DNA of 44,186 bases from Microcaldota archaeon (lineage in GTDB: Archaea; Micrarchaeota; Micrarchaeia; Micrarchaeales; Micrarchaeaceae). Shown here piece by piece: positions 34,335-44,003 of this stretch. The stretch covers positions 86,172 to 130,357 of the forward strand of contig JAJZVQ010000001.1 in the NCBI GenBank assembly GCA_021845575.1, read 5' to 3'. A program made the position numbers and the translations under genes. The notes below the pieces were generated by a model that was not told the origin of the DNA, did no database searches, and saw only the letters and a list, made by a program, of their open reading frames with translations. Every line of letters starts with the position of its first letter. Position 1 is the stretch's first letter.

Positions 34335-34418
34335 AGGATTTACCTTTTTAAGTGATCTGCCTGTATCTTTTATTCAGAGAATATTTTTATACTTTTGTCA
34401 GGAAAATACCTTGTTAGC

Positions 34419-35291
34419 ATGGATATATTTATGGTAAGAGTGGCGAGTCTGGTCGCGGTCGCATTGTTATACCTGCTTTATGACCTGTTCAACAACAGGA
34501 GCATACCAAGCGTTTTCGCTTATGCGACAGTCGCCTTCGGCGTATTCATGACTATCCTTTATTTTAATTATGCAATGATACTTATTAGCATTGCGGTCGC
34601 TGCCGCGATTTTCGGCATAGGGTATTTACTGTACAGGAAAGGACAGCTCGGATTCGGCGACATAACAGAATTCGCAGCACTGTCGCTGATATTTCCGTTT
34701 CAGCAGACGCCGCTCATGAATAATCTATACCAATATAACATACCCTTTATAGTGTCTGTGGTAATCGCGGCGGGATTGGCGGCGCTTCTCATCGTACCCA
34801 TTTTCTACATCCCTGCCGCAAAGAAAAAATTTCCCAAAGCGCTTATTAATTACATATCAAAGAAAGACGCATCCAGATCCATAATAGTTGGTTTATCCTA
34901 TATGCTATTGATTGCCGTAATGGTTCTTTTTGTCAGAATACAGATATATGGGATTTTGATTCTGGCGGCGCTCACATTCGGTTCGGTGTTCACAATATTA
35001 TTCGAAAATCCCATAACGAATTCGATGGTTGCGAATGTCGGGATAAACGAACTCGAGGAGGAGGATATAATAGCGATGAATATGCTTAGCGAGAAAACAA
35101 AAAGGAAGCTTAATAGCGAGATAAAGGGATTTACGGGTCTGGTAACAAGGGATATGATTGTTAAAATGAAAAGGAAGCATATCAAAATAAAGCTGCCAGT
35201 ATACAAAAAAGGAATTCCATTCGCCGTTCCATTATTTGTAGGAGTTATAATAACCCTATTGTTTGGGAACCTGTTCTTCATACTTTTGTGA
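34419..35291 (+). CDS. Prepilin/preflagellin peptidase-like membrane aspartic protease (A24 family)
   Basis: 290 aa with eight to nine hydrophobic segments. YDLFNNRSIPSVFAY (first catalytic Asp with the N-x-x-I-P pattern) and GQLGFGDITEFAAL (GxGD, second Asp) identify the FlaK/PibD/TadV-type A24 protease, which cleaves class III signal peptides of archaellins and type IV pilins. A cytoplasmic loop of about 60 residues precedes the last two helices. ATG 34419 is preferred over TTG 34395; a TATA-like box lies at about 34382-34391. No obvious class III pilin is encoded in the window, so its substrate must be elsewhere. Confidence 0.88.
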   Translation: MDIFMVRVASLVAVALLYLLYDLFNNRSIPSVFAYATVAFGVFMTILYFNYAMILISIAVAAAIFGIGYLLYRKGQLGFGDITEFAALSLIFPFQQTPLMNNLYQYNIPFIVSVVIAAGLAALLIVPIFYIPAAKKKFPKALINYISKKDASRSIIVGLSYMLLIAVMVLFVRIQIYGILILAALTFGSVFTILFENPITNSMVANVGINELEEEDIIAMNMLSEKTKRKLNSEIKGFTGLVTRDMIVKMKRKHIKIKLPVYKKGIPFAVPLFVGVIITLLFGNLFFILL

Positions 35292-36463: not shown

Positions 36464-36556
36464 ATTACCAATTATAAAACAAAATCTATAATCCTTTGTG
36501 CGGCAAAGCGGAGCATCCTCTTCGACTGCCCTTCGCCATCTTATTATTTTATAGGA

Positions 36557-36604
36557 ATATTTAAATATGTATTTATGTATATATTTATTTACTAAAGTAA
36601 ATAA
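36557..36604 (+). promoter_or_regulatory. Promoter and 20-bp palindromic operator of the T4SS-like operon
   Basis: A TATA-type element ATATTTAAATAT (36557-36568) would place the transcription start around 36590. A perfect palindrome, TTATTTACT-AA-AGTAAATAA (36585-36604), covers that position and ends just before the first gene, which fits a repressor operator. The TATA element is itself symmetric and may also drive the divergent helicase gene. Confidence 0.55.
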
Positions 36605-36616
36605 GTGGTTGAGAGA

Positions 36617-37021
36617 ATGAAACAACAAAAAGCAATGACCGGAGTTTTTAGATTGCCTGCGATTGCCAAAAGGGTTTTTAGGATTATCCTGCCGTTTGTT
36701 ATCACCGCGATGATCCTTGTCAAGGTTTCGGCAGCGCAGAGCGCATCTTCCGGCATAATATCGCAAATAACATATATCAAGGAGGTTCTTTCCCAGGTAG
36801 GCCCGGCTTTAAGCGCGCTTCTATTTGTGCTTGCAGGGATATTCTACGCCATCGGCCAGATCCTTCCATACGACAAGAAAGCAAATTTCCATACCACCGC
36901 CATAAACATAATCATAGGGGCGGTAGTGGTCGGCGTATTGAGCGTCGCATCAAACACGCTTGCAACCGCTTCGACACATCTGCTGAGCAATTTTACGAAT
37001 GTGAGCTTGAATAGCAGTTGA
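36617..37021 (+). CDS. VirB2/TrbC-like (CedA1-like) pilin subunit
   Basis: 134 aa. A basic start and hydrophobic segment (FRIILPFVITAMILVKVSAA) form a signal peptide with possible cleavage after SAA. The mature part has two hydrophobic helices (VGPALSALLFVLAGIFYAIG and INIIIGAVVVGVLSVASNTL) joined by a short basic loop (PYDKKANFH). Signal peptide plus two helices with a basic loop is the layout of conjugative VirB2-family pilins and of CedA1. First gene of the operon; the start ATG 36617 is preferred over GTG 36605. The assignment is by architecture and context. Confidence 0.65.
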   Translation: MKQQKAMTGVFRLPAIAKRVFRIILPFVITAMILVKVSAAQSASSGIISQITYIKEVLSQVGPALSALLFVLAGIFYAIGQILPYDKKANFHTTAINIIIGAVVVGVLSVASNTLATASTHLLSNFTNVSLNSS

Positions 37022-37025
37022 TTGG

Positions 37026-38051
37026 ATGCAAAGCCCGTTCTTAGGTTATGACATCGCAGTAGGACTTGTTTCCATAATGATAGCCGTGTCAGGCATAATA
37101 CTCGGATTGGGGATAGCGACCGATGACAAAAAGCTCAAGGATATCGGAAGAAGCGAGCTTGTGCAGGCAATAGTGAATGGGGTGATTGTGGGGACACTCT
37201 TCTTCATATTTTCAGATTACGGGATAATTGCAAATATAAGCAACTTCCTTGTCAAAAGTTCGTCTAGCATAGTGTGCAGCGGAACCGCAAATAATTATGC
37301 GATATGCTTCGCACAGCAGTTTCTTGTTGGCTTGAGCCCCATAACCGTAAATAACGCCCAATACCCCACCCTATTCATGAGCGTGACCGGGCTTCTGGCT
37401 CCGATTACGATGCTTTACGGGACACTCGCATTTATTTCATCCCTTTCGTTCAATGCCGTTGTGGTCTCTATAAGCCTTGCCTCCCTGTTCAAGCCGATTC
37501 TGACGCAGCTGAACTACATGATCACAGCCTTGTCGATGTCGCTGCTTAGCCTCGAGGCGCAATCCATACTTCTTAGATTTATAGATTTGACAGCTCTTCC
37601 CGTATTGCTGCCTGTCGGAATGGTACTGAGAAGCTTTTATTTCACCAGAAGGCTTGGCGGGACGATACTCGCGGTTACGATAGCGTTTTTCGCCGTTTTG
37701 CCCCTGACCTATCTGCTGAACGCCCAGCTTGTCGCGGAATACGCTTCAAATTCAAACCAGTCTATAAACGGGCTGGTGTTGAATTCTACCAGCGTGAAAT
37801 CTAATCTGATAAACGATATACAAAATTCCGGGATAAATGCCCTTTCAGTATCATCGATCTCGAGCAGCATCGAATCACTTTTGGCTAGCGCGTATGGCGT
37901 TTTGAACAAGATCTTTGATTATGTTGCGTTGGTGATAGTCGAGGCGTTTTTCCTGCCGATATTCAGCATAATGCTTACGATAGTCTCAGCAAGGGAACTG
38001 GCGAGGATCTTCGGTTCAGAAGTGTCATTCGGCAGATTTGACATATTTTAG
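37026..38051 (+). CDS. Polytopic membrane channel protein, VirB6/TrbL- or CedA-like
   Basis: 341 aa with about seven to eight hydrophobic helices, an extracytoplasmic Ser/Asn-rich segment (about 230-275, NSNQSINGLVLNSTSVKSNL) and two Cys near 85-95 that could form a disulfide outside. The stretch SLASLFKPILTQLNYMITAL and the block around LPVGMVLRSFYFTRRLGGTI recall the central region of VirB6/TrbL/CedA proteins, which form the inner-membrane conduit of type IV secretion or DNA import. It starts four bases after the pilin stop. No search was possible, so the family is inferred from topology and neighbours. Confidence 0.6.
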   Translation: MQSPFLGYDIAVGLVSIMIAVSGIILGLGIATDDKKLKDIGRSELVQAIVNGVIVGTLFFIFSDYGIIANISNFLVKSSSSIVCSGTANNYAICFAQQFLVGLSPITVNNAQYPTLFMSVTGLLAPITMLYGTLAFISSLSFNAVVVSISLASLFKPILTQLNYMITALSMSLLSLEAQSILLRFIDLTALPVLLPVGMVLRSFYFTRRLGGTILAVTIAFFAVLPLTYLLNAQLVAEYASNSNQSINGLVLNSTSVKSNLINDIQNSGINALSVSSISSSIESLLASAYGVLNKIFDYVALVIVEAFFLPIFSIMLTIVSARELARIFGSEVSFGRFDIF

Positions 38052-38059
38052 GTAATTTT

Positions 38060-38785
38060 ATGGATATCGCATTTTATGTATTTATGTCGTTTTTTTTCAT
38101 TGCGCTTGCACTTGGCGTGCTTACGCTTAATGCCGTTGCGGTTGTTTTCGGAATTCTCATGCTTTCAATCTCCATATTCGTCTACAAGGGATGGTATATC
38201 ATTGAAGATTTGATATTCAGGCATTCAAACGTGATAGAGCTTCTTGACGGATATGAGCTGAGCGGCAACAGATTTACGGCCATAAGGAGAATGGGCAATG
38301 CGTTTATATCGACAGCCGCCGCATCAATCGATACATCGCATATAGGCGAAATGGACAGGGAAAAACTTGAAAATCTTATCAAAAATACAAACAAGCCCTT
38401 CAAGCTGATCATGTATGTCCAGAAACTCAACACATCAAAGATACTCAACGAATTGAAAACGAAACAGTACATGAAAGAAAAGGAGATCGAAAGGGTTTCG
38501 AGAAGCAAGCACAGCGAAGGAAAAGCAAACCAGCTAAAAAGGGAGATCATACAGATAGAAAACGACATAAACGAGATGGCGTCAGGGAAAATTCCCTTAA
38601 AGCTCGCATATTACGTTGTCGTATCGTCCTATTCCGAAAGCATGTTCACCGCGCAGGAAAACGCCATATTCTCGATCAAGGAGATATCCAACGCGTTTAA
38701 CGGGATTCTGAACTCCGAAGCCAGGCTGCTGGAAGGGCAGGAACTCGCAGAATTGCTGAGATTTGACAGTACAATGGTGTTTTGA
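38060..38785 (+). CDS. VirB3-like membrane hairpin fused to a VirB4 N-terminal domain
   Basis: 241 aa. Two hydrophobic helices at about 4-44 (FYVFMSFFFIALALGVLTLN, then AVVFGILMLSISIFVYKGW) resemble VirB3. They are followed by a soluble part with IELLDGYELSGNRFTAIRRM and a charged coiled coil (about 125-175), as in the N-terminal domain of VirB4/TraC. The stop overlaps the start of the ATPase gene (TGATG), so a VirB3-VirB4 protein appears split into membrane/N-domain and ATPase parts. GGTAATTTT precedes ATG 38060. Confidence 0.6.
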   Translation: MDIAFYVFMSFFFIALALGVLTLNAVAVVFGILMLSISIFVYKGWYIIEDLIFRHSNVIELLDGYELSGNRFTAIRRMGNAFISTAAASIDTSHIGEMDREKLENLIKNTNKPFKLIMYVQKLNTSKILNELKTKQYMKEKEIERVSRSKHSEGKANQLKREIIQIENDINEMASGKIPLKLAYYVVVSSYSESMFTAQENAIFSIKEISNAFNGILNSEARLLEGQELAELLRFDSTMVF

Positions 38786-39900
38786 TGGATAAGCTATCCA
38801 ATTCCTACAACGCTTCAAAAGCCGTTCATGTGATGAGGGAGAGCGAAAGGTTTGACAACGACTCAATAAAAGGAATATATCTGGGAAAAACCCTCGCATA
38901 CAAACTGCCGTTTTTTCTTAACCAGGAAAGCCTTCTAAATCCGCACATAGCGATACTTGGCATGACAGGATGTGGAAAGACGTTCCTCCTAAGATCGATT
39001 ATAGGCAGATCATTCACTTACCATAGCAGGGGTTCCATTGTGATGGACTGGAACGGGGAGTATTCCGAAATAGTCAATTTCCTCTCGGGAACCGAATGCG
39101 AAATCGGCAACCGCGGCGATCTGGAAAAAATAGGCAAGAAAAGGAATGACGGAATTGTGAGCTTCAATCTGTCAAAACTCCGGGACAAGAACGAAAAAGA
39201 GAGAATTGCCGTTGACATACTCGGCAATGCCATATCTGAAATGCGCCTTCGCAAGTTGAATGGGAGGCTGTCAAAATTGGTAATCATAGATGAGGCATGG
39301 AAGCTTCTGAAGGCGCAGGAGCTTGCGCTTTTATTCAGGGAAAGCAGAAAGTACGGCTTCGGAATTATAGTGGCAACGCAGCTTGCCAGAGACATAATAA
39401 ACGAAATTATCGCCAATTCCGCATGCATAATAATATTCAAGCTGCAGAACAGCACGGATTTCGAGCTGCTTGAAAAATCCGGCATAATAAATTCCGAGGA
39501 AGTGGCGAGGATAACCGAACTTCCCATAGGTTCATGCCTCGTACTCCAAAGGTACAAGGAAAACCCGAATCTGATAAACAAGATATTCATAGAGAGAATC
39601 GAGGGCATGGATTATTCGTGTTATAAATTTTTTGGTGGTGCAATGAGATTTGAGGTTGTTGCGGAAGAATTCATAAATCAGACAAATAAACTTGGTGCGG
39701 ATTCAGAAATCAAAAACGCCATAATCAATTATGCCGAGCAAAACGAAAGGAGGATTGATTTGGCGAATTTCATCTCGTTTCTATTCAAATCCGGCTTTGG
39801 AAGGGCGGACATTGTGAGATATCTGAGGTCGCTGAAGGTAGACGACATTTCAATATTGAAAGCCTACAATTCTGCGTCAAGGCTCATTGTAGACGTTTAG
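38785..39900 (+). CDS. VirB4/HerA-family ATPase (ATPase-domain-only protein)
   Basis: 371 aa, no membrane segment. Walker A GMTGCGKT at 59-66, MDWNGEYSEIV (the strand-2 D-x-N/G-E of HerA/VirB4), Walker B LVIIDEAWKLL (Asp169, Glu170), then ESRKYGFGIIVATQLARDI (sensor with Gln) and NSACIIIFKLQNSTDFELL. These are the signatures of VirB4/CedB/HerA hexameric motors that power pilus assembly or DNA movement. The C-terminal 100 residues form an additional helical domain. Translationally coupled to the upstream N-domain gene. Confidence 0.85.
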   Translation: MDKLSNSYNASKAVHVMRESERFDNDSIKGIYLGKTLAYKLPFFLNQESLLNPHIAILGMTGCGKTFLLRSIIGRSFTYHSRGSIVMDWNGEYSEIVNFLSGTECEIGNRGDLEKIGKKRNDGIVSFNLSKLRDKNEKERIAVDILGNAISEMRLRKLNGRLSKLVIIDEAWKLLKAQELALLFRESRKYGFGIIVATQLARDIINEIIANSACIIIFKLQNSTDFELLEKSGIINSEEVARITELPIGSCLVLQRYKENPNLINKIFIERIEGMDYSCYKFFGGAMRFEVVAEEFINQTNKLGADSEIKNAIINYAEQNERRIDLANFISFLFKSGFGRADIVRYLRSLKVDDISILKAYNSASRLIVDV

Positions 39901-39908
39901 GTGGGGCG

Positions 39909-40547
39909 ATGATTCTAAGTTCTTCGTTTGCGGTCAATGCGTCAATCAAGCCAAACACCAATATGAGAGACATAAGGAATACGATGAACCAGCTGCCCAA
40001 TCTGAGACTTGTCTCTTTCGGAACGAAGATCTCATACGAGATACTGGACAACTCCGGCGAGGAGCATTCGGTACTGGAAATACTTCCGAATCGCGTAAAA
40101 ATCATCTTCTTTTTTTCAAAACCCAATCCATTAACCTATAATAGCAACCTTCTGAAATTTCTCTCCATGCTTGCGTATCTCGACAGGCATTTCGTCATCG
40201 AACTGAGAACGCTTTATCCATACGTCATAGAAGCGATACGCGAATCAATGTTCCCGAACAGCAATATCGAAAACAACAACGTACTTTTAGAGATGAAGAT
40301 CGAGGCCCTGAGCGATGCGAACAGGGAGTTATCCGCCTATGTCCTTGAAATCGAAAAAAGGAAGCTCGAGGAAGCCGAAAGATACGCGGTATTTAAAAAG
40401 TTTTTTGAAGATGCCACGGAAAACATCTGCAAAAAGAGCGGCTACAGGAAAGAGGTCGTGGAAAGAAACCTCAATTTTATAGGGATTGACGAAGCCACAA
40501 TAAAAAAGGCCACCGACATGTTGACTGCCGAAAAAAAATTCAGGTGA
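39909..40547 (+). CDS. Soluble T4SS-cluster protein with coiled coil, 212 aa
   Basis: Not recognised. No signal peptide or membrane helix. The first half has alternating hydrophobic strands (RLVSFGTKISYEILD, RVKIIFFFSKP), and the second half is a charged helix (about 125-165, VLLEMKIEALSDANRELSAY then EIEKRKLEEAERYA) with a C-terminal helical bundle. GGTGGGGCG precedes ATG 39909. Its place between the two ATPases suggests a cytoplasmic adaptor or a split part of the motor; that is inference from position only. Confidence 0.7.
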   Translation: MILSSSFAVNASIKPNTNMRDIRNTMNQLPNLRLVSFGTKISYEILDNSGEEHSVLEILPNRVKIIFFFSKPNPLTYNSNLLKFLSMLAYLDRHFVIELRTLYPYVIEAIRESMFPNSNIENNNVLLEMKIEALSDANRELSAYVLEIEKRKLEEAERYAVFKKFFEDATENICKKSGYRKEVVERNLNFIGIDEATIKKATDMLTAEKKFR

Positions 40548-40551
40548 TTGA

Positions 40552-41295
40552 TTGGAGCTCAAAATAAAAAAACTGAAGCTTTCCGCAATCGAGATATTCT
40601 TTGTGCTATTGGCATTTATTTTTGCCGCGTTTATCGCATTGGGGATAACGCCCGAGGACCTGTTCGGTGCGCTGTACAATTACTTAGACATAATCTACAT
40701 TGCGGCCGGTTTGTCAATATTCTATTCCATAAAAAAACTTTCGGAAAGCGCGGTTATGAACAGGAAGATATCGATAAACTACGCCGGCGAAAATTATGCG
40801 GAGAAAAAGGTAATAGCGAGGGAAGAAATAAAAAGGGTCATAGGCGAAAATCACGGCGCAAACGTCGAAACACTGCTGGACGCATTCGCGAAGGATATGG
40901 ATGCCGGGAAACAGGCAAAGGAGGAGCTGGAATTTGCATTGAGGAAATTCGAGAAGGAAGACGACAATTTCCATTACCGCAATGGCAGAAACGCTCTTGC
41001 GGCAAGGCACGTATACGAGATGGCGATGCTACGCGGGGATTATTCATTGGAAGGCGAGGACATACTTAAAGCGAACCGCGTAATATGGCAGCCAATCGGC
41101 AAGTTTGAACCGGAATCCTTAAGCAAGTTTGAACCGGAATCGTTAAAAAATCGCCATATCGTCATCCTTTCGTTCAACGGGATGCAACGCAGATTTTTAT
41201 CAAAGTACCTTTGTATGTTCAACGAAAAATGCGCCGGATTGTTCTTTCTGAATCTGTGCGGCTATGCGGTGATAGAAGATGTTGTATTACACTGA
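40552..41295 (+). CDS. Membrane-anchored T4SS-cluster protein, 247 aa
   Basis: Two hydrophobic helices near the N terminus (about 11-32 and 45-60), then a charged cytoplasmic part of about 180 residues that ends in a hydrophobic, Cys-containing segment (KCAGLFFLNLCGYAVIEDVV). Start TTG 40552 with GGTGAT upstream; the previous stop is only four bases away. A tandem duplication repeats KFEPESLS (41099-41146). A VirB8-like or other inner-membrane scaffold role is possible but unsupported by motif. Confidence 0.65.
   Translation: MELKIKKLKLSAIEIFFVLLAFIFAAFIALGITPEDLFGALYNYLDIIYIAAGLSIFYSIKKLSESAVMNRKISINYAGENYAEKKVIAREEIKRVIGENHGANVETLLDAFAKDMDAGKQAKEELEFALRKFEKEDDNFHYRNGRNALAARHVYEMAMLRGDYSLEGEDILKANRVIWQPIGKFEPESLSKFEPESLKNRHIVILSFNGMQRRFLSKYLCMFNEKCAGLFFLNLCGYAVIEDVVLH
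41099..41146 (+). repeat. 24-bp in-frame tandem duplication
   Basis: GCAAGTTTGAACCGGAATCC plus TTAA (41099-41122) is repeated at 41123-41146 with one base changed (G for the last C of ATCC). It duplicates eight codons (KFEPESLS/KFEPESLK) within the membrane-anchored T4SS protein. The near identity implies a recent event. Confidence 0.85.
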
Positions 41296-41461
41296 GGAGA
41301 TAGCAAAAATGGGCTTGGCTGTCGCATTGGCATTGATTTTCGCAATCGCATTTGTCGATTCTTTTGCCTCATCGGAAAAGCAGTCAAAGGCCATGAGAGG
41401 TTTGATGATAAGCTGCATTTTGCTGTTGGCATTCTGCGTATTGTTGATCAAGGTGTTTTGA
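41279..41461 (+). CDS. Two-helix mini membrane protein, 60 aa
   Basis: Two hydrophobic helices (MGLAVALALIFAIAFVDSFA and MRGLMISCILLLAFCVLLIK) separated by a short charged loop (SSEKQSKA). GGTGATAGAAG precedes ATG 41279, and the gene overlaps the 3' end of the previous one. The hairpin layout is like VirB3 or the accessory CedA2-type subunits. Function unknown; membership of the complex is inferred from the operon. Confidence 0.65.
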   Translation: MLYYTEEIAKMGLAVALALIFAIAFVDSFASSEKQSKAMRGLMISCILLLAFCVLLIKVF

Positions 41462-41739
41462 TGTTGGAATATGTAAGGGGCATATACAAGGCAGAAAGGG
41501 ATTATCTGTTCGTAAAGATTCTGATGCTGTGCGCAATGAGCCTGATCATATCCATGGCTTTGATAAGAATGTTCCCCGCGCCGCATGTTTTTGCATATTA
41601 CGTCTTTGCCGCCTTCGCAATTGCTGATATTCTAATCTCTTTCTTGTTGGCGTCTAAACACCGCAACAGTGCCGCGGCGATTTACAGGCTTGCGTTTTAC
41701 ACCGCGATTTCTGCAATCGCGCTGGCAGTGATTATATGA
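41461..41739 (+). CDS. Three-helix small membrane protein, 92 aa
   Basis: Three hydrophobic helices (ILMLCAMSLIISMALIRMFP, VFAYYVFAAFAIADILISFL and AFYTAISAIALAVII) with a basic loop (ASKHRNS). The start ATG 41461 has GGTG upstream and overlaps the previous stop. The end overlaps the start of the large ATPase (ATGA), so translation is coupled through the whole end of the operon. No family recognised. Confidence 0.65.
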   Translation: MLEYVRGIYKAERDYLFVKILMLCAMSLIISMALIRMFPAPHVFAYYVFAAFAIADILISFLLASKHRNSAAAIYRLAFYTAISAIALAVII

Positions 41740-44003
41740 CAAAGGCATTATTCGAAGTGTGTGCGATTTCAAATCAGGGTACGGACAAAAGAAGGTTCAT
41801 CGAAGCCATGGGAAGAAGGGAATTTGCGATAATACACAATCTGGAAAATGGAAAGCTATACATTTATTTTCAGGAAGACGACGTAGTCAACAAGACCATG
41901 CTGCTTAACAGCCTGCCGGGTTTTGATATCGCCGAAAGGCAGACCGAGATAAACATTGCAGAAATGCACGTGATGTCCCTTTACAAAAGCGGCGAGAGCG
42001 AAATCAAGCCGATCAAGGATATCATATCGCTGCAGAACGCTTCCGGAATCGTGATGCTTGTCTTTGTCCCTGCGGCTGACAGCGAAATAGAAATTTTTAA
42101 GAATGACATCGAAAGGCAACTCTCGGAAGGCAAGACCAAGACCACATCATCGACAACCGGAAGTTTTTTCGGCGGGAATAGGACGAACATATCCGCGCAT
42201 ATGGACATATTTGAAAAGACGGACGAAAGAAAACTTTTGACATCGATACTCGAAGATATCGACAGCACGATGCTTTCCGGAAATTCCGTTTACAAGCTCT
42301 TTTTTGCAGTCAGCGAAGATAAGCAAAATTCCATATCCAAGGCGCTTGCGGAAAGGCATATCCTGCTTCACGAAGAACTTATAAAGATGAAGGGACCAAA
42401 TCCGGATCGGTTGTTCGATGTTTTAAGGACGAAAAAATCAATACTCTATGGAATGTCGCATATAACAAATTTCATGGAGGTATACGCAAACAGGTTAAAC
42501 TACGTGATTGAAACGTTCAGCGAAAGCACCAAAGGCGGCATAAAAATAGGCACATACCTGAAGAATGGAGTGCATAATACAAATAACGAAATAGGAATCG
42601 AAAAGTCGGCATTCAATCTTGGATTTGTCCTTTCAGGGCTGCCGGGAACCGGAAAAACAAGCGAAGCAATGTCCATAATAGAGCAGATTATAAGAAGCGA
42701 ACCAAGCAAGACAAGGATTGCGATTATATCGCCAACGGACGAGTGGAACGACTTTGCGCTGGCGCACGGCCTGCATCTTATAAGCATAAACAATGACTCT
42801 TTGCCCATCAACTTTTTTTCATGTCCAAACGGCAGCGCAGACAAATTTTGCGAGGATCTTGCGCTTCTTATTTCTGCCGCGTCAAATTCAGGGCCTTATC
42901 AGAACCCCATGGAAAAATGCCTGTTGAACGCGTTTAAACGCTCCTATAGAAAAAGCGGTAGCCCGAATCCCAGCAAGGTATACAATAATATAGAGGAAAG
43001 CATCATCAAGCTTCACGGAAAGATCTCGAATGTCGGTATCAGATACACAAAGCACGGCGAGAATATAAAGGCCGCATTGGAAAACCTCAGGGTTATACTG
43101 AATAGGGCGGAGTATTCGGTCACTGAAGGAATCCAAATTTCATCCCTGCTCGATAGCGGAATTGTGTTTGATCTGTCGCATGTCAGCAATAACATAAAGC
43201 CGTACATCTACGCGCTGCTGCTCAACCAGCTTTATTCCATAGCAGGCGAGTTCGATGTTTATGGCGACGATTCGCTGAGGCTGTTAATCGGGATTGAGGA
43301 AGCGCAGATAATCTTTAGCATGAACGACAGGAAAGAATCGGCAGCGGCAAAGGATCTTGAAAAACGGATACAGGATTTCAGGAAAAAAGGCGTCGGAATC
43401 ATGCTCATTGTGCATAGCATAAGCGATATCGATGTCGGTATAAGGAGGTTGTGCCAAAACAAACTTTATTTGAAACAGGCTCCGGACATTGCGGGGATAG
43501 CGGCAAAGGATTTGGTGTTTACTTATTCCGACATGGACAACGTAATAATGAAACTCAAGCACCTGGATTCAAGGGTGGGCGCGTTCGATTTCGTGAGAAA
43601 AATAGGCAGTGAAAAGATTTCTTCGGATTCAATTTTTGTCAGGACAAGCGACTACAACCTAAAGAGATTTGACGCAAACGCAAAAGAGATTTACGAAAGA
43701 AAAAGAATAAAGGTTGAAAAGGACAACAGGATAAAAAGCGCGTTTACGCTGCTTGACATAAGAAAAAAGGGAGACAATCTAAAAAAAATTTCAAACGCCA
43801 GAATAATCTATCTTGGAGAAATAATCGGCAGCCAAGAAATAGAGGAAAACAGGTTTGACGTGAACGATCTGCTGGAAGGCAGGGAATACATTCTTGAACT
43901 GCTAGGAGAAAACAACAGGCAGGTCTACAGGCACAAATTTACGGCAAGGGAAAAGATAGACCTTTTATTGAGCAATAAAGGATTGGAAAAGTACGTTGTC
44001 TGA
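41736..44003 (+). CDS. Large HerA/VirB4-type ATPase, 755 aa (second motor of the cluster)
   Basis: No membrane segment. An N-terminal domain (1-270) with alternating strands and helices resembles VirB4/TraC N domains and has a Gly/Thr/Ser-rich hinge (GKTKTTSSTTGSFFGG, about 130-145). Then come Walker A GLPGTGKT (301-308), IAIISPTDEWNDFA (strand-2 acidic motif), NPMEKCLLNAFKRSYRK, Walker B LLIGIEEAQIIF (Glu521/Glu522) and GVGIMLIVHSISDIDVGIRR (sensor region, His for the usual Gln). About 130 extra residues close the protein. It could be the VirB4/CedB pilus motor or a soluble VirD4-like coupling ATPase. GTGATTAT precedes ATG 41736. Confidence 0.8.
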   Translation: MTKALFEVCAISNQGTDKRRFIEAMGRREFAIIHNLENGKLYIYFQEDDVVNKTMLLNSLPGFDIAERQTEINIAEMHVMSLYKSGESEIKPIKDIISLQNASGIVMLVFVPAADSEIEIFKNDIERQLSEGKTKTTSSTTGSFFGGNRTNISAHMDIFEKTDERKLLTSILEDIDSTMLSGNSVYKLFFAVSEDKQNSISKALAERHILLHEELIKMKGPNPDRLFDVLRTKKSILYGMSHITNFMEVYANRLNYVIETFSESTKGGIKIGTYLKNGVHNTNNEIGIEKSAFNLGFVLSGLPGTGKTSEAMSIIEQIIRSEPSKTRIAIISPTDEWNDFALAHGLHLISINNDSLPINFFSCPNGSADKFCEDLALLISAASNSGPYQNPMEKCLLNAFKRSYRKSGSPNPSKVYNNIEESIIKLHGKISNVGIRYTKHGENIKAALENLRVILNRAEYSVTEGIQISSLLDSGIVFDLSHVSNNIKPYIYALLLNQLYSIAGEFDVYGDDSLRLLIGIEEAQIIFSMNDRKESAAAKDLEKRIQDFRKKGVGIMLIVHSISDIDVGIRRLCQNKLYLKQAPDIAGIAAKDLVFTYSDMDNVIMKLKHLDSRVGAFDFVRKIGSEKISSDSIFVRTSDYNLKRFDANAKEIYERKRIKVEKDNRIKSAFTLLDIRKKGDNLKKISNARIIYLGEIIGSQEIEENRFDVNDLLEGREYILELLGENNRQVYRHKFTAREKIDLLLSNKGLEKYVV

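Follow-up and report, generated by a model that had tools for sequence, protein, structure and literature searches.

A conserved nine-gene operon of Micrarchaeota resembling the Ced/Ted type IV secretion systems

What is the role of a compact run of nine genes, two of them encoding ATPases and several encoding membrane proteins, in the genome of an ultrasmall archaeon? The genes (here g1 to g9) lie at 36617-44003 of the window, a stretch of 44,186 nucleotides spanning positions 86,172 to 130,357 of contig JAJZVQ010000001.1 from a Microcaldota archaeon of the Micrarchaeota (GCA_021845575.1; genome of 779 kb, 94% complete). A first-pass annotation had read them as a type IV secretion system (T4SS), domesticated on the chromosome and serving DNA uptake, exchange with kin or contact with a host. 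Our analysis confirms its observation and partly supports its interpretation. The operon very probably encodes a pilus-linked translocation machine of the T4SS type. The best overall explanation, to which we assign a probability of roughly 0.55, is a chromosomal, minimal, relaxase-less T4SS like the archaeal Ced and Ted systems that imports DNA via cell contact; whether the machine is specifically a DNA-import version we judge an even call.

Pilin, channel candidate and two motors

All nine open reading frames (ORFs), reported earlier as overlapping or near-contiguous, are present and co-directional. Their lengths in amino acids (aa), transmembrane (TM) content and the basis for each description are as follows.

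36617..37021, plus strand: g1, VirB2/TedC-type pilin, 134 aa (Pfam profiles, hydropathy)
37026..38051, plus strand: g2, polytopic channel candidate with ~7 TM helices, 341 aa, CedA/VirB6-like by position (alignment, TM prediction)
38060..38785, plus strand: g3, 241 aa, two N-terminal TM helices and a soluble domain (alignment, hydropathy)
38782..39900, plus strand: g4, HerA/VirB4-type ATPase, 372 aa (Pfam, NCBIfam and PDB profile matches)
39909..40547, plus strand: g5, soluble protein, 212 aa, coiled-coil-like C-terminus (33 homologues)
40552..41295, plus strand: g6, fast-evolving membrane protein, 247 aa, 1-2 TM helices including an N-terminal one (alignment)
41279..41461, plus strand: g7, double-TM protein, 60 aa, resembling CedA2 solely in size and topology
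41458..41739, plus strand: g8, 93-aa triple-TM protein overlapping the g9 start (position, hydropathy)
41736..44003, plus strand: g9, second ATPase, 755 aa (AlphaFold2 model, Foldseek, hhalign)

Reading frames overlap at g3/g4, g6/g7, g7/g8 and g8/g9 and are elsewhere spaced by a few bases, with AGGTGAT/AGGTGG-like ribosome sites upstream of several starts. The g4 start is probably the ATG at 38785, which overlaps the g3 stop.

The proposed VirB2-like pilin is borne out by its family. PF18895 (T4SS_pilin) matches 26 of the 32 g1 family members (best 4.8e-7) and PF04956 (TrbC/VirB2) matches 16 (2.8e-5); the window's own g1, taken alone, scores 17.4 bits where the curated cut-off is 26.6. By hydropathy the protein begins with a signal sequence, in which an AxA-like site was picked out by eye (VSA|AQ, residues 39/40), and continues with two TM helices linked by a basic loop (consensus PPDKKANFH); 15 residues are invariant in the alignment of 32 sequences. 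Searching PDB sequences with this family's profile returned no CedA1 or TedC match and no pilin.

Both predicted ATPases were also recovered, with intact Walker motifs. The g4 protein (Walker A GMTGCGKT, Walker B VIIDEAW) matches DUF87 (6.8e-12), CedB (1.7e-13), CedD (8.4e-13) and VirB4 4ag5 (3.4e-13), and scores above the gathering threshold for DUF87 and P-loop_TraG. The g9 protein, soluble by hydropathy except for one weak segment, is related to g4 by hhalign at 97%. Its AlphaFold2 model (predicted local distance difference test score, pLDDT, 85.9; predicted template modelling score, pTM, 0.81) comprises an alpha/beta N-domain (1-270), a HerA/VirB4-type motor with a helical insertion (290-640) and a C-terminal beta-rich domain (665-753). 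In Foldseek searches HerA of S. solfataricus (4d2i, 6e-15, the top match) and full-length R388 VirB4 (8rtd, 5e-14 over ~800 columns) match this model at near-equal strength, followed by VirB4 4ag5 (1e-11). HerA starts with a beta-barrel; by our own secondary-structure comparison, the modelled g9 N-domain appears to alternate strands and helices as in VirB4, unlike that start. The VirB4-type assignment of g4 and g9 is at superfamily level only, HerA scoring equally well.

Such matches would also be expected from a DNA-repair or defence cluster of the HerA-NurA type, with membrane genes nearby by chance, an outcome named beforehand as refuting the T4SS reading. We rejected it: NurA (PF09376) is absent from the genome, with seven controls positive; operon-wide synteny ties the motors to a VirB2-type pilin and membrane proteins; and a separate HerA-like gene on contig C33 sits on a very long tree branch from g4. 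The locus is not a HerA-NurA repair system, and a HerA cluster of either kind is highly improbable.

Between pilin and motor lie g2 and g3. The g2 alignment of 32 sequences shows two invariant cysteines, Cys84 and Cys94, in the stretch from TM2 to TM3, and the motif LLPxGxVLRxFYxTRxLGG; gene order, topology and size agree with a VirB6-type protein without confirming one. The g3 topology is that of a two-TM VirB3 (PrgI-type) protein. By place and size it could be a counterpart of CedB's N-terminal portion or of a VirB3-VirB4N segment, again unconfirmed, and the CedB profile aligns to g4 only from profile position 251 onward. An hhalign comparison of g3 and g5 with g9, looking for a shared VirB4 N-domain, gave no match.

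The remaining subunits are less uniform. Listed by the first-pass annotation as a soluble coiled-coil protein, g5 has no TM helix and has weak but positional matches (up to 51 bits) beside the motor in a second, paralogous locus described below. Since it is also part of that locus, its sequence relationships suggest that it is probably a core subunit rather than an accessory; the description "several unknown subunits" otherwise holds. The three "small membrane proteins" (g6, g7, g8) do contain TM segments, and g6, at its full length, is not small. In several relatives (L079:9159-9974, L071:8340-9353, L082:13494-14492 and others) the TM helix of g6 is preceded by an additional N-terminal ectodomain of the secreted type that contains cysteines; the copy in the window lacks this candidate contact module. 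At the places of g7 and g8, ~25 loci have two-TM ORFs and three-TM ORFs of similar size, respectively. Place, size and TM number are kept across loci while the sequences have diverged: half-versus-half hidden Markov models recover 4-8 of 13 real g7 proteins (0/650 shuffled) and 2-4 of 12 real g8 proteins (0/600 shuffled).

Conservation of the operon

The synteny that had been proposed as a check was found. In every one of the 31 other loci examined, drawn from two families within a single order, g1, g2, g3 and g4 adjoin each other in this sequence on one strand, and g5, g6 and g9 usually come next. The second ATPase gene is in the same operon in 23 of these loci; in the other eight genomes g9, alone or with g5/g6, is on another contig or elsewhere. 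Across 164 genomes of the order (g2 at E < 1e-40, g9 at E < 1e-20), 96 have both g2 and g9, 43 have neither, and 15 and 10 have a single one of the two (Fisher p 2e-17; p 1e-10 among genomes at least 85% complete). The test ignores kinship, and genera with mixed presence occur. Because g9 lies apart from the other genes in 8 of the 31 genomes examined, physical linkage is not the whole of the association. Beyond the order, a single further family of the class yielded g9.

When named genomes were scanned with the g2 alignment, 79 loci came up, nearly all from Candidatus Micrarchaeota/Micrarchaeaceae and a few labelled Marsarchaeota. Among the carriers are Ca. Mancarchaeum acidiphilum Mia14 (locus L091, G009, 952,257 bp) and Ca. 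Micrarchaeum harzensis A_DKE (locus L090, G030, 989,838 bp), both host-dependent and grown with a Thermoplasmatales host (PMC5498576, PMC8975820). Searches of 72,556 plasmids with g2 and g4, and of IMG/VR with g2 and g9, gave no match, which together with conservation across the order's chromosomes favors the earlier view of a domesticated chromosomal system. The cluster is real and old. We do not claim a fixed chromosomal address: no flanking genes are common to most loci, and the largest class sharing them numbers eight.

Conservation is uneven within the operon. It is highest in the pilin, which is 60% identical in Mia14 and A_DKE, and poor in the g4 motor. An insertion of ~111 aa after the Walker A region, present in the motor of the second locus, is absent from g4 in the source genome and in many lineages. 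These features would suit a filament alone, that is, a T4SS-derived adhesion or biofilm pilus whose motors serve assembly and retraction without macromolecule transport. An adhesive pilus, however, would need less than a conserved polytopic channel plus two different motors whose Walker motifs are intact, and we regard this alternative as improbable.

The C-terminal ~80 residues of g4 are matched (E 2e-7 to 8e-11) by stand-alone proteins of ~100 aa encoded downstream of the motor at L007:7216-7530, L257:10989-11282 and L268:4206-4505; on sequence grounds this domain apparently exists in both motor-fused and separately encoded forms. In G024 a g2 homologue (contig C1:384094-385065) contains an in-frame TAG, and the genome lacks g9; the system may be decaying there.

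Comparison with known systems and likely substrate

The closest parallel is Ced of Sulfolobales and Desulfurococcales (CedA, CedA1, CedA2, CedB, CedD, CedE), which imports DNA by means of a pilin, a polytopic channel, the two-TM CedA2, a CedB with TM helices and CedD (PMC11868833). Like Ced, the Micrarchaeota cluster is chromosomal and relaxase-less, and it corresponds to Ced type for type in its two-helix pilin, polytopic channel candidate, small two-TM protein and two HerA/VirB4-type ATPases (PMC11868833). The second ATPase is therefore not an addition to the Ced plan, as had been supposed, for Ced already has CedB and CedD (PMC11868833). Differences are the signal-bearing pilin (cleavable type, as in TedC), the encoding of N-domain and motor as separate genes (g3, g4), the extra g5, g6 and g8, the single compact operon and the different phylum. 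Ted of Thermoproteales (TedA, TedB, TedC) is similar in its pilin gene followed by a ~7-TM gene, its VirB4-type motor and its AxA-type pilin signal, but Ted loci combine one VirB4 with HerA, ParA or Rad50 genes (PMC9905601), whereas the Micrarchaeota cluster pairs a split, VirB4-like motor with a second, dedicated ATPase that ends in a beta-rich tail.

Other classes fit less well. The relaxase PF03432 (MOBP) was not found in the whole source genome, with a positive Lactococcus lactis control and other mobilization (MOB) families outside the search; to that extent the reported lack of a relaxase holds. Archaeal conjugative plasmids likewise lack recognised relaxases (PMC12857230). Without a PF03432 relaxase, and not being on mobile elements as searched, the cluster is not a conjugative element combining mating-pair formation (MPF) and MOB modules. 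Nor is it a type IV pilus of the type II secretion sort: none of the nine proteins matches the T2SSE (PilB/TadA) ATPase or the T2SSF platform. Judged by sequence scores, it is not a member of the curated Ced family either, with g4 far below the cut-offs (for CedD, 47.8 bits against a cut-off of 600); no protein of the source genome exceeded the CedB cut-off and one control did, Sulfolobus being among the matching genomes. By analogy, the cluster would nonetheless work like a T4SS of the Ced/Ted sort.

We propose the following mechanism. The g1 pilin would be exported and assembled into a VirB2-type pilus, while g2 and the small membrane partners g7/g8 would form a membrane channel. The g3 protein would anchor the g4 ATPase to this channel, g3 and g4 together acting as one split VirB4/CedB. 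The g9 protein, probably held at the membrane by g8, would be the second ATPase, taking the place of CedD in Ced or VirD4 in conjugation, and g5 and g6 may be assembly or contact subunits. After cell-cell contact DNA would move, most probably into the cell, with kin or the Thermoplasmatales host as donor; gene transfer from Thermoplasmatales to Micrarchaeota has been reported (PMC8975820, PMC5498576). Contact-dependent, relaxase-less import is the simplest reading because the parts equal those of Ced type for type and Ced imports DNA. Gene order and conservation, the pilin family, the superfamily of both motors, g2-g9 co-occurrence and the lack of any MOBP relaxase or mobile homologue are results of the analysis; the channel role of g2, the g3-g4 and g8-g9 pairings, the substrate and its direction are what we infer from them.

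Several results weigh against DNA import by such a machine. Profile searches with g3, including a Pfam scan, gave no VirB3 or VirB4N match, and the earlier naming of g3 as VirB3-VirB4N is left with gene order, topology and size. The earlier description of g2 as a VirB6/CedA-like polytopic protein stands for the ~7 TM helices and is unconfirmed for VirB6 identity: g2 has no match in Pfam, VirB6 included, and its structure model (pLDDT 78) found nothing in the PDB at E < 0.2 with Foldseek, for which reason we do not claim a VirB6 fold. Against the CedB profile g4 scores 50.1 bits (curated cut-off 700), and g9 matches neither CedB nor CedD. The motor superfamily also transports proteins or builds pili. 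Neither g2 nor g9 occurs in roughly one in four genomes of the order, and the system is therefore dispensable in some lineages. Given the absence of NurA, a Ced-linked repair route is not evident. The function given here is a proposed one.

A second locus, host contact and neighboring genes

Searches with g2 revealed tandem arrays of distant homologues; we rejected the view that these weak, phylum-wide matches are noise, the arrays being true homologues (hhalign of g2 against the channel array, 99.9%, E 1.1e-35). They belong to a second locus with the order pilin, 6-TM protein, up to six g2-like channels, two g3-like proteins, a HerA/VirB4 ATPase of ~505 aa, small proteins, a g5-like protein and a membrane protein of ~800 aa. 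Examples are L251 (Mia14), L252 (A_DKE), L253, L254, L285, L286 and, in part, L007 (G000 contig C1). The last is the source genome's copy, outside the window; no channel array turned up for it in the assembly, and contig C1 ends at that point. The second locus appears to be present in nearly all genomes, on one contig with the nine-gene operon in G015 and ~20 kb from it in Mia14.

The two kinds of motor separate in a tree with support 100/99, the g4 type evolving much faster. The second-locus motor is 74% identical between Mia14 and A_DKE, and the first match of the Mia14 g4 motor in A_DKE is the second-locus motor, at 24%. A tblastn search of plasmids with the second-locus motor returned, among the best matches listed, mostly distant TraC ATPases (22-25% identity). 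A Pfam scan of the channel array found no VirB3, VirB4N or VirB6 match. At L286:6284-16342 (G026) and L255:6450-12628 (G062) the array channel proteins are 800-1100 aa long; three of the former carry Big_3_5 immunoglobulin (Ig)-like domains and one of the latter CARDB domains. These channel proteins are reminiscent of the tandem, extended VirB6 proteins of Rickettsiales.

Such domains, together with the g6 ectodomain of some relatives, bring in another possibility, that the nine-gene machine is a host-contact conduit for exchanging proteins or metabolites with the archaeal host, or for manipulating it, with DNA not the main substrate. Cultured Micrarchaeota do depend on a host (PMC5498576, PMC8975820), and Southlakia requires its T4SS genes for epibiotic growth (PMC12857230). 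The T4SS of Patescibacteria (MPF-FATA) is likewise chromosomal, in ultrasmall, host-dependent cells; it has VirB2-like pilins and VirB3/4/6 (PMC12102498, PMC12857230), and differs in having VirB1, VirB8, VirD4 and six pilins, whereas the Micrarchaeota operon has one pilin and the second locus up to six channels. Among DPANN archaea, the account of nanohaloarchaeal VirB4/TraG loci describes, in the passages concerned, two adjacent VirB4-family ATPases with giant (SPEARE) adhesins, proposed as a host-directed T4SS; one ATPase is fused to the giant adhesin, and those passages describe no VirB2-type pilin or polytopic channel (PMC10266531). In the source genome, however, the nine-gene locus contains no recognisable effector or adhesin, and it is missing from about a quarter of related genomes, making the near-universal second locus the better candidate for an essential interface. 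A host conduit is thus possible but unlikely. For the nine-gene operon we favor DNA, with modest confidence, because the second locus with its adhesion domains fits a host interface better.

A more speculative and rather doubtful extension is that Micrarchaeota run two parallel T4SS-type machines, a near-universal one (up to six tandem channels, some with Ig-like domains) binding the Thermoplasmatales host and a patchy one (fast motor, second ATPase) importing DNA across the contact as a route for host genes. If true, this would be the first machine shown moving DNA between two archaeal phyla in symbiosis. The broader questions are by what means ultrasmall archaea attach to their hosts and by what route genes of the host come into their genomes. 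In the papers covered, passages naming Micrarchaeota together with a type IV secretion system describe no such Micrarchaeota locus; the Mia14 paper describes type IV pili and never VirB or HerA (PMC5498576), and the A_DKE paper mentions neither secretion nor VirB nor HerA (PMC8975820). The nine-gene locus is a testable candidate for DNA uptake or cell connection. It takes the range of domesticated conjugation machines beyond Crenarchaeota into a DPANN phylum, in an unusual layout, and its presence in both co-cultured species offers a short gene list for cryo-electron microscopy, proteomics and contact expression.

A third kind of T4SS locus, co-oriented, occurs in a distant Micrarchaeota genome (L284:6920-15829, G147). 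It encodes an 890-aa PrgI-TraC-TraG protein (a VirB3-VirB4 fusion), a 10-TM protein with a signal-like N-terminus, a 517-aa protein with an N-terminal signal-like segment and, just before a 1076-aa homologue of g9 (matching the g9 profile at E 4e-66), a 117-aa three-TM protein; adjoining it are T2SSF genes and a T2SSE ATPase with ferredoxin-like domains. Like the nine-gene operon, it has a g9-type gene preceded by one for a three-TM protein, along with a gene for a polytopic (10-TM) protein, but VirB3-VirB4 is fused in one protein with TraC/TraG and g1 and g2 homologues are absent there. Since this g9 homologue stands beside a full VirB3-VirB4, a g9-type ATPase is not simply a VirB4 substitute, and the place remaining for it would therefore be that of the second ATPase (VirD4 in conjugation, CedD in Ced). 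The three-TM ORF holds the same place beside it as g8 beside g9, making g8 a possible membrane anchor of g9.

The genes left of the operon are housekeeping genes, as reported earlier: a DEAD-box helicase on the opposite strand, tRNA synthetases, Exo5 and topoisomerase I, along with a type IV prepilin peptidase. Between helicase and operon lies one further feature.

36464..36616, no strand: A/T-rich intergenic region separating two divergent genes, that of the DEAD-box helicase (minus) and g1 (plus); by its sequence a likely, putative promoter region

On the right, the 130,357-base contig stops 183 bases past g9, and the operon may have a further gene downstream. VirB2-type pilins are not expected to need a prepilin peptidase; the type IV leader (prepilin) peptidase A24 gene lies at 34395-35288 of the window (plus strand), two genes left of the operon.

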